Source: Bacteroidetes bacterium ADurb.Bin037 (GTDB lineage Bacteria > Bacteroidota > Bacteroidia > Bacteroidales > UBA932). From it: DNA of 64,000 nt. Shown piece after piece: positions 20,073 through 23,555 of the stretch. The notes under the pieces were generated by a model. That model was not told where the DNA came from and ran no database searches. It saw only the letters and a list, made by a program, of their open reading frames with translations. The stretch covers positions 1 to 64,000 of the forward strand of contig MWER01000012.1 in assembly GCA_002071175.1 (NCBI GenBank), given 5' to 3'. The number at the start of each line of letters is the position of its first letter. Positions within the stretch are counted from its first letter, which is position 1. A program made the translations under genes and the position numbers.

Positions 20073-21101
20073 ATGAAAGAATGGTTGATCGGAAAAAATC
20101 TTGACCAATTGCGCAGCATAACTGCCGGATACGGTTTGCCTTCCTATACGGCAAACCAGATTGCACGCTGGATATATGGCAAAAGGATTAGGGAGATAGG
20201 GCAGATGACCGATTTGAGTAAAGCGGCTAGGGAGCGGTTAGACCGCGGGTACCAGGTAGGGGGATTTGATCCTCTGCAGGTTCAGGTTTCTTCCGATGGA
20301 ACGAAGAAGTACCTGTTTCCGTTTACTGACAAGGACCATGGTGGGATAGAAGCCGTTATGATTCCGGAAGGGGATAGGGTCACTTTGTGCATATCTTCCC
20401 AGTCGGGATGCAAACTCGGTTGTGCTTTCTGCATGACAGGACGTATGGGCTTTCAAGGGGATCTTACAACAGGCCAGATCGTTGGACAATTTTTAAGGAT
20501 AGATGAAACGGATCGCCTTACAAATATTGTATATATGGGCATGGGTGAGCCTTTGGATAACTGGCACCATGTCTTGTGCTCACTTCAGATCTTTACTGCA
20601 GATTGGGGATTTGCCTGGAGCCCCCGCCGTATTACTGTTTCCAGCTCCGGGATCCTGCCCGTGCTGGATGATTTTATGGAAAAGACTCAGGCGCATCTTG
20701 CCATCAGCCTGCACAATCCCTTTGACTCCGAACGGGCACAGATCATGCCTGTACAAAAAGCTTACCCGGCAAGCAGCGTGATCAAAAAATTAAGACAGTA
20801 CGACTTTACCGGACAGCGCAGGCTCAGTTTTGAGTATATTCTTTTTGACGGCTGGAACGATACGCAAAGACATGCTGCCGCTTTGATACAATTGCTGAGG
20901 GGAATGGAATGCAGGGTAAATCTGATACGTTTTCACACCATACCTGACTTTCCAATGCTCCCGTCAAGGGAAGAGGTCGTCAATGCTTTTTTAACAAGAC
21001 TTAGTAAAGCCGGATTGACAGCTACGGTGCGCAGCTCAAGAGGTCAGGACATCTTGGCGGCATGCGGGCTGTTAAGTGTACAGAATAAAAAAGACTCATA
21101 A
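20073..21101 (+). CDS. rlmN: Dual-specificity 23S rRNA/tRNA methyltransferase RlmN
   Basis: A 342-residue radical SAM enzyme that methylates C2 of adenine 2503 in 23S rRNA and A37 in some tRNAs. It has the iron-sulfur motif CKLGCAFC, the YMGMGEPL motif, and the paired methyl-carrying cysteine in DILAACG near the C terminus. It starts 4 bases after its promoter element. The stop overlaps the recX ATG by one base (TAATG). Confidence 0.95.
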
Positions 21102-21577
21102 TGAATCGGGAGGAATACAACAAACTGCTGGGAAGGATGCAATCTTTGTGCAGCCGGAGCGAAAAATGCCGTACCGATATCAAAAAAAAATTAAAAGGAC
21201 TGAATGTGCCTTCCCCGGTAACGGAACAGATACTTAGTGATCTGGAAAAGGAAAGCTACATAGACGAACAAAGATATGCGCGGGCTTATGTAAACGATAA
21301 AGGACGTTTACAGGGATGGGGACCGGTCAAGATTGCTAATATGCTTAGAATGAAAGACATACCGGATGATATTATAAAAACGGCTCTATCTCAGGTAGAT
21401 GAAAATTTGTTTTCAGAAAAGCTCAAAACCGCACTTTTACATAAGGATAAGACCATGAAAGAACAGGATCCGCGTAAACGTCATGCCCGCCTAGTGAGGT
21501 TCGGTTTGGGAAAAGGATATAGTTTTTTACAGGTAATAAGGACTTTGGAAATATTAAAAAACAATAAAACTGATTAA
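21101..21577 (+). CDS. recX: Regulatory protein RecX
   Basis: A 158-residue helical protein of the RecX family, with the RecX-typical SRSEKCRTDIKKKL and DEQRYARAYVNDK blocks. RecX binds RecA filaments and limits recombination. Here it is co-transcribed with rlmN and divergent from recA, so recA and its modulator are expressed from facing promoters rather than one operon. Confidence 0.9.
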   Translation: MNREEYNKLLGRMQSLCSRSEKCRTDIKKKLKGLNVPSPVTEQILSDLEKESYIDEQRYARAYVNDKGRLQGWGPVKIANMLRMKDIPDDIIKTALSQVDENLFSEKLKTALLHKDKTMKEQDPRKRHARLVRFGLGKGYSFLQVIRTLEILKNNKTD

Positions 21578-21582
21578 TTTTT

Positions 21583-21612
21583 TTTGCATAATTGAAATTC
21601 TTATTATATTTG
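21583..21612 (+). promoter_or_regulatory. Strong consensus promoter of the 59-residue small protein
   Basis: TTTG at 21583-21586 and TATATTTG at 21605-21612, 18 bases apart, match both halves of the Bacteroidetes consensus. Transcription should start near 21617-21620, giving a leader of about 42 AT-rich bases. Confidence 0.75.
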
Positions 21613-21660
21613 TGCTTTAGAATACAAGCCATTTAATCACTAAATTTAAATATTACTGTT

Positions 21661-21840
21661 ATGACAATCTTGGACATCACATTGCAGCCTCTTTATGACA
21701 TCTTAGCAGCAATCTGGGCTTTTATATTTCAAGGCGCCGGAGCTTGGGCAAATGATCTCTATGTTATTCTGAACAAAATTTTTGACATTTTCCAGAATAT
21801 CTTTACATTTGTAATCAGAGAGGTAACACCAGTTGTATAG
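21661..21840 (+). CDS. Small hydrophobic protein of 59 residues, unknown
   Basis: The ORF runs from ATG at 21661 to TAG at 21838-21840. The protein begins MTILDITLQPLYDILAAIWA and ends with REVTPVV. It is mostly hydrophobic and aromatic with scattered acidic residues (about five acidic, two basic), has no cleavage site or Cys, and could form one or two amphipathic or membrane helices. I do not recognise the family. It is real in my view because it lies alone between a consensus promoter and a perfect terminator. It could be a membrane-associated small protein or peptide; a non-coding RNA with a chance ORF is the alternative. Confidence 0.65.
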   Translation: MTILDITLQPLYDILAAIWAFIFQGAGAWANDLYVILNKIFDIFQNIFTFVIREVTPVV

Positions 21841-21878
21841 TTTTTTAGCTAACAATTACTGATCAGTACCTTAATAAT

Positions 21879-21909
21879 AAGGCTGTCTCGTACGAAGACA
21901 GCCTTTTTT
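21879..21909 (+). terminator. Terminator of the small-protein gene
   Basis: AAGGCTGTCT (21879-21888) pairs perfectly with AGACAGCCTT (21896-21905) around a 7-base loop, followed by T residues. It closes the transcript that begins near 21618. Confidence 0.9.
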
Positions 21910-21913
21910 GCTT

Positions 21914-22459
21914 ATGCATATCTGTAAAACAGGAAACATCTTTTTTACATTATATAGAAGCACGCGAAAATCATTGGGAATAAACGTCAGAAAGGACGGA
22001 TCGGTACATGTGAGGGCTCCTTTCTGGTTGGGTAAAGGGGTCGTTATCCGCATGGTTTCCGCCAGGGCTTCCTGGATACGGAGCCGTCAGGAGGCTTTGA
22101 AAAAAGAACCCGTACTTCCGAAAAACAATGAAGACCTGAATTTGCTAAAGCGTAAGGCATTATTGAAATTCAAAGGCATGGCAATTCCCTGGGTAGAACA
22201 TTTCAGGAAAACCTATGGGGTTGAACCTAAAAAATGGACAATCCGGGCGATGGATACGCGCTGGGGAAGTTGTTCTTCTGCAACGGGAAGGATCACACTC
22301 AATTTGAAATTGATCTACAAACCCGATGAATGTGTGGAATATGTGATTGTCCATGAGCTCTGTCATCTGATCCATCCCGATCACGGGAAAGGATTTTATA
22401 CGATATTGGAAAGAGAGCTCCCTGACTGGAAGGCAAGAAAAAAGAAATTAAAGATGTAA
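21914..22459 (+). CDS. YgjP-like (DUF45) metal-dependent protein
   Basis: A 181-residue protein of the YgjP/DUF45 family, zinc metallopeptidase-like. It has RWGSCSS and the zinc motif VHELCHLIHPDHGKGF (HExxH plus a third His). Some family members are reported to act on nucleotides, so the substrate is not certain. A TTG at 21908 extends the frame, but it lies in the preceding terminator; ATG 21914 is preferred. No separate promoter was seen, so it may depend on read-through. Its TAA stop forms the first bases of the prfB promoter element. Confidence 0.85.
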   Translation: MHICKTGNIFFTLYRSTRKSLGINVRKDGSVHVRAPFWLGKGVVIRMVSARASWIRSRQEALKKEPVLPKNNEDLNLLKRKALLKFKGMAIPWVEHFRKTYGVEPKKWTIRAMDTRWGSCSSATGRITLNLKLIYKPDECVEYVIVHELCHLIHPDHGKGFYTILERELPDWKARKKKLKM

Positions 22460-22468: not shown

Positions 22469-23555
22469 ATGGTATACAATGCAGATAATTATAAAAACCT
22501 ATTGCAGCGTGGGCAACGGTTGAGGGGGTTTCTTTGACGTAGAGGCCAGGGAGAAAGAACTAAAAGAACTGATAGATACTTCACAAGAGCCCGGTTTCTG
22601 GGACAAGCCCAAAGAGGCTGAAGTGCTCCTTAAGAAACAATCCATGCTCAAGACTTCCCTGGATGCCTATTACAGGATTAGGGAAGGGTTGGATGATCTG
22701 CAGGTGCTTGTAGAGCTGGAAGCCTCGCAGGAAGACTTGGATTCCCAGATGGGCAAAGTGCTTGGATGGATTGAGGAAGAAGAGTTAAAAGGCATGTTGG
22801 GCAATGAAGGGGACGAACTGGGGGCCTTGCTGAAGATCAACTCAGGTGCGGGGGGAACCGAGAGCAATGACTGGTCTGCCATGCTCATGCGGATGTATAT
22901 CCGCTGGGGAGAAAGAAACGGATATAAAGTCAGGGTGCACAACATCCTGGAAGGAGAAGAAGCTGGTATCAAATCCTGTATTCTGGAGTTCGAAGGCAGT
23001 TATGCCTATGGCTATCTTAAAGCCGAGAATGGGGTACACCGTTTGGTCCGCATTTCACCGTTCAATGCACAAGGGAAGCGGCAGACAACTTTTTCATCTG
23101 TTTTCGTTTATCCGGCTGTTGACGATACGATAGAGATCGAAATCAACCCTGCTGACCTGGAATGGGACACCTACCGCTCCAGTGGTGCTGGAGGACAGAA
23201 TGTTAACAAGGTAGAAACGGGGGTCAGGGTATGCCATATTCCTACAGGGATCGTTGTGGAAAACACGGAAACAAGAAGCCAGTTTGATAACCGTCAAAAC
23301 GCCCTGCGTATTCTGAAGTCCCATTTGTACGAAATAGAGTTGGAAAAACGGAGGGAAAAAGAATCACAGTTGGAAGGTCAAAAGAAAAAGATCGAATGGG
23401 GTTCACAGATCAGGTCCTATACCCTGCATCCGTATAAAATGGTAAAAGATCACCGTACCGGTTATGAAATGACTGACACACAGGCAGTGCTGGACGGGGA
23501 CCTTCTCGGGTTCATCCATGCCTATCTTATGGGAGGATCCGCAAATGGCTCTTAA
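22469..23555 (+). CDS. prfB: Peptide chain release factor 2, with programmed +1 frameshift
   Basis: Terminates translation at UGA and UAA. The reading frame is 22469-22534, then a +1 slip over the T at 22535, then 22536-23555, for 361 residues in all. The first frame encodes a normal RF2 N terminus (MVYNADNYKNLLQRGQRLRG) and stops at an in-frame TGA (22535-22537). The second continues DVEAREKELKEL and contains the SPF codon-recognition motif and the GGQ motif (SSGAGGQNVNK). It overlaps the start of the AddA-like gene by 11 bases. Confidence 0.96.
22523..22538 (+). promoter_or_regulatory. RF2 programmed frameshift site
   Basis: AGGGGG (internal Shine-Dalgarno-like sequence), three spacer bases TTT, then CTTTGAC: the classic slippery CTT codon before a TGA stop. 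Low RF2 favours the +1 slip, so the protein controls its own level. Confidence 0.95.

Follow-up and report, generated by a model that had tools for sequence, protein, structure and literature searches.

The first 64,000 nucleotides of contig MWER01000012.1 of Bacteroidetes bacterium ADurb.Bin037, hereafter the window (64 kb), contain a compact unit between recX and a ygjP-like gene, which is centered upon a small open reading frame that we refer to as orf59. A first-pass annotation of this DNA had placed three elements between these two genes, namely a consensus promoter, an ORF of 59 codons and a terminator, and all three are found at the positions given. The features of the locus are as follows:

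21101..21577, + strand: recX, the upstream neighbor (PF02631, E 4.9e-14), found upstream of the unit in 11 of 11 genomes
21583..21612, + strand: sigma-ABfr type promoter, with TTTG at 21583-21586, an 18-nt spacer and TATATTTG at 21605-21612
21618..21660, + strand: AT-rich 5' leader, with the conserved core CCATTTAAT at 21629-21637
21661..21840, + strand: orf59, ATG to TAG, 59 aa, a predicted anionic amphipathic two-helix small protein with a homologue at the same position in each of the 11 genomes
21858..21867, + strand: 3' UTR palindrome ACTGATCAGT, from alignments of the loci
21879..21912, + strand: intrinsic terminator, a hairpin with a 10-bp stem (21879-21905) followed by a T-run
21914..22459, + strand: ygjP-like metallopeptidase-fold gene, the downstream neighbor (PF01863, E 1e-43)

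The -33 TTTG and -7 TATATTTG elements perfectly match the sigma-ABfr consensus of Bacteroides, TTTG ... TAnnTTTG (PMC7366714). Only 7 perfect matches of this kind occur in the 64 kb window with both strands counted, and the orf59 terminator is among the very few strong terminators of the same stretch. As judged from the sequence, the promoter, short leader, coding ORF and intrinsic terminator constitute a single monocistronic unit of ~290 nt. The high expression of orf59 that the first-pass annotation suggested is a possibility raised by the promoter. A second perfect sigma-ABfr-like promoter match is present within orf59 itself (21782-21811); it is a product of the codons for a conserved C-terminal motif, and few other members of the genus have a match there.

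Our genus set comprised 13 genomes, 11 of which have a recX match, and all 11 of these carry the orf59 unit. The remaining two (G003 and G012) are uninformative regarding the orf59 site, because they have no recX match. The named relatives carrying the locus are uncultured Bacteroidales MAGs, namely Rikenellaceae bacterium DTU002, UBA5226, UBA1374, WOFB08 and Bact_09. Searches with the orf59 protein identified six other genus members with a clear homologue and several others with a weak one, and with rlmN, recX, ygjP and prfB mapped onto the loci, the strong matches as well as three of the weak ones were all found between recX and ygjP. The eleventh case (G010) was found by position, as its 54-codon ORF encodes a peptide too diverged for profile search, while being accompanied by the same promoter, leader and terminator. 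At this locus (L035 1243-1404), the peptide is nearly unrecognizable and the three flanking elements are almost unchanged. orf59 is single copy in each genome of the genus that carries it.

The signals surrounding the ORF are even more strongly conserved. A perfect TTTG-N18-TAnnTTTG is located at -56 to -58 from the orf59 ATG in all 11 genomes, and the joint recurrence of promoter, ORF and terminator at the same position in every one of them places these signals beyond chance. Over the 11 genomes, mean pairwise identity reaches 80% in the leader core and 85% in the terminator, as compared to 44% at the third codon positions of orf59. These elements are also specific to the locus: a leader search of the 13 genus genomes, allowing 2 mismatches, returned only one weak extra match, a combined promoter and leader model recovered nothing except orf59 loci at E below 1e-14, and the terminator sequence is essentially unique to the locus in each genome. 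All 10 of its base pairs are kept in 11 of 11 sequences and the 21-nt hairpin core is exactly GCTGTCTCGTACGARGRCAGC in 8 of them. In 9 of the 11 genomes, the terminator loop (within 21882-21902) includes CGTACG, whose self-complementarity could allow the loops of separate transcripts to pair with one another. Further upstream in the 3' UTR, G006, G008 and G009 have a different palindrome, TCAGCGCTGA, at roughly the ACTGATCAGT position, and RNAalifold finds no conserved structure for the ACTGATCAGT/TCAGCGCTGA palindrome.

Several features of the alignment indicate that orf59 is almost certainly protein-coding. Among the seven closest members, there are zero indels in the first 53 codons, and identity is 0.73, 0.84 and 0.51 at the first, second and third codon positions, respectively, making the third positions the most diverged. 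pN/pS ranges from 0.18 to 0.59, with many synonymous distances saturated, which is consistent with purifying selection at the level of the protein. All five other frames contain stops in every member, whereas orf59 itself is uninterrupted in every one of the 11 genomes. Synonymous-site bias had been suggested beforehand as a check, along with the opposite scenario of a conserved RNA harboring a frameshifted ORF, and it is the former pattern that is observed. Across all 11 ORFs, 23 of 62 pairwise gaps are not multiples of 3, a count that carries little information because the distant pairs align badly.

The encoded peptides, of roughly 50-60 residues, share a distinctive composition. That of the window has 5 D/E and 2 K/R, while D/E exceed K/R in all 11 peptides, each of which contains 9-16 aromatic residues. 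Maximal hydrophobic moments are 0.43-0.69 over the 11 members, for each member a value attained by no more than 1% of shuffled sequences of the same composition, and Wimley-White interface sums range from -4.5 to -12.5. The initial description of an amphipathic, negatively charged and aromatic-rich peptide is therefore borne out by the moments, charge balance and aromatic counts of the whole family. In the AlphaFold2 models, the window protein forms a helical hairpin (H3-23 and H28-54; pLDDT 74, pTM 0.47) and the most diverged member, G010, has two helices (H5-20 and H26-43; pLDDT 67, pTM 0.36), both models being of moderate confidence and built from a shallow alignment. The best 19-residue Kyte-Doolittle mean is 0.58-1.57 in all 11 members, and none has a segment of sufficient hydrophobicity for a classical transmembrane helix. 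Likewise, neither a signal peptide nor a double-glycine leader was seen upon reading the sequence. Of the membrane peptide proposed earlier, a surface-binding amphipathic form is thus plausible, whereas a transmembrane form is not, given Kyte-Doolittle values of at most 1.57 in every member. Since the moments are strong and the segments too weakly hydrophobic to span a membrane, a role at the membrane surface is our best guess from these predictions. Amphipathic helices such as these could equally well bind a protein partner.

Beyond the genus, the family appears to be absent. Sequence and profile searches of Pfam, NCBIfam, PHROGs and the PDB produced no significant match to orf59, in agreement with the earlier remark that no family was known for it; weak matches to PHROG tape-measure proteins (E 0.027) and to Nup84 (E 0.098) are at chance level. 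A fold search of the PDB returned nothing with E below 9, and no relatives were found among viral contigs, phages or plasmids. When 250 genomes of the taxonomic family were searched with the orf59 profile, nothing convincing came from the other genera, and among 393 genomes of the order its sole strong match was the window itself, the 392 other Bacteroidales being negative. Furthermore, no comparable unit was evident when the region upstream of ygjP was read by eye in 19 loci of other genera. Weak protein matches (L009, L013-L025, L063-L070, L089-L091) fall within long ORFs, include stops or have chance-level scores and were treated as chance; L065, when read directly, is not a small gene of the orf59 type. 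The best promoter-leader match outside the genus (L103 of G122, E 3.8e-6) covers mainly promoter positions and precedes a long ATPase-like ORF, while the terminator model matched other genera at E 2e-5 at best, and these matches resemble generic terminators. Homologues were accordingly found only within the genus, and orf59 appears to be restricted to it at the sensitivity of these searches. Older relatives may have been missed, because the divergence seen in G010 already outruns profile searches.

The position of the terminator relative to ygjP is conserved as well. In all 11 genomes, the in-frame ygjP ATG lies 31-33 nt past the start of the terminator-stem GCTGTCT, leaving a gap of 7-9 nt between the stem and the start codon (8 nt in the window, ATG 21914). 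Three genomes (G004, G006 and G008) have an earlier, out-of-frame ATG four bases upstream of the ygjP start. A scan reaching from 320 nt upstream of the terminator to 1 kb downstream of it found no other consensus-type promoter shared by the 11 genomes, although weaker, non-consensus promoters of ygjP-prfB would escape it. The short gap, together with the lack of another conserved promoter, makes it probable that the terminator additionally restrains read-through into ygjP-prfB. Start codons of Flavobacterium tend to lie in an unstructured stretch from -20 to +20 (PMC6847099); by analogy, a hairpin ending near -9 should lower ygjP translation as well.

Based upon these features, we somewhat favor a combined view, in which a real small-protein gene confined to the genus encodes a small accessory or modulator associated with the membrane, with read-through from the unit into ygjP-prfB. 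The product would be made without a signal peptide and would fold into two amphipathic helices separated by a Gly-rich turn. Through its aromatic and aliphatic face, the peptide would then lie upon the inner membrane face or pack as a helical oligomer. Its net negative charge should weaken electrostatic binding to anionic lipids, which counts against the membrane step. ygjP-prfB would be transcribed mainly by read-through past the orf59 terminator, which would also keep ygjP expression low.

Alternatively, the unit could be mainly a cis-acting leader, in which the small ORF and terminator attenuate ygjP-prfB and the peptide is a mere leader peptide. We consider this unlikely, albeit with several observations in its favor: the terminator separates a small ORF from a gene for which no other consensus promoter is conserved, all 11 genomes have only 7-9 nt between the stem and the ygjP ATG, identity in the leader amounts to 80%, the hairpin core is exact in 8 of 11 genomes while synonymous sites are near saturation, and small ORFs of the leader type have been reported from long 5' UTRs of B. 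thetaiotaomicron (PMC7366714). However, the amino-acid sequence of orf59 is under purifying selection and has no run of regulatory codons, the distance from stop codon to hairpin varies from ~30 to 58 nt, and RNAalifold finds no conserved, mutually exclusive antiterminator fold. Attenuator leader ORFs do resemble orf59 in placing a small ORF and then an intrinsic terminator directly before a structural gene, although orf59 is longer, its amino-acid sequence is conserved, it lacks a conserved antiterminator and its stop-to-terminator spacing is variable. A transcript with two jobs, supplying a genus-specific amphipathic peptide and using its leader and terminator (CGUACG loop) to gate read-through into ygjP-prfB, is conceivable but rather doubtful; if true, the supply of release factor 2 would be tied to an attenuator unlike any described.

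It is decidedly improbable that orf59 encodes a secreted or surface-acting amphipathic peptide resembling bacteriocins or phenol-soluble modulins. Its size, amphipathicity and richness in tryptophan and phenylalanine would be suitable, and small proteins of this kind are known from UTRs, such as LspU (PMC12607899), yet the sequence exhibits neither a signal peptide nor a double-glycine leader, has no sequence match, and adjoins rlmN, recX, ygjP and prfB rather than a transporter or immunity gene. Its presence in every covered genus member also differs from the patchy occurrence of bacteriocins. Even less can be said for a small hydrophobic toxin of a type I system, which is very unlikely even though the peptide is short and hydrophobic and its gene has a promoter and a terminator to itself, as no antisense promoter opposite the unit is conserved in the 11 loci, each genome has one copy, the helices are amphipathic rather than transmembrane, and mobile-element or phage relatives are lacking. 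Lastly, a non-coding small RNA with an incidental ORF, to which the better conservation of leader and terminator relative to the ORF might point, is extremely unlikely and was rejected on the basis of the codon statistics (low pN/pS, most diverged third positions, an ORF open in 11 of 11 genomes) and of a terminator that is the sole structure identified by RNAalifold, with a folding z-score of just -1.17 and no Rfam match to the unit, the one Rfam hit being a sub-threshold chance match elsewhere.

Among known systems, the phenol-soluble modulins and LspU of Staphylococcus are, like orf59, short leaderless amphipathic helices, and the LspU gene shares its mRNA with a gene downstream of it (PMC12607899). 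orf59 differs in belonging to Gram-negative Bacteroidales and in its two predicted helices, and no sequence relation was found. A Pmt-type exporter is absent from the genes neighboring orf59. SpoVM of Bacillus is similarly a small protein whose amphipathic helix could lie on a membrane, whereas it is unrelated in sequence and taxonomy, sporulation-specific and much shorter than orf59. A further parallel is provided by the smORF products of GMSC (PMC11364881), which are equally short, unannotated, confined to narrow lineages and devoid of domain matches; for orf59, synteny, promoter, terminator and selection have in addition been documented in 11 genomes, and GMSC may itself hold an orf59 entry. 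The best reading is that orf59 belongs to the taxonomically restricted small proteins. It represents a well-supported small-protein gene that was missed by profile libraries, its clean signals persisting despite large divergence, and it offers a defined target for studying the function of lineage-restricted amphipathic peptides in Bacteroidota. Moreover, with its terminator so close to the ygjP start and the release-factor-2 gene further downstream, the locus provides a testable case of regulated read-through. prfB, which encodes release factor 2, begins ~10 nt after ygjP (22469), and its sequence includes CTT TGA C, the classical programmed frameshift site, at 22532-22538.
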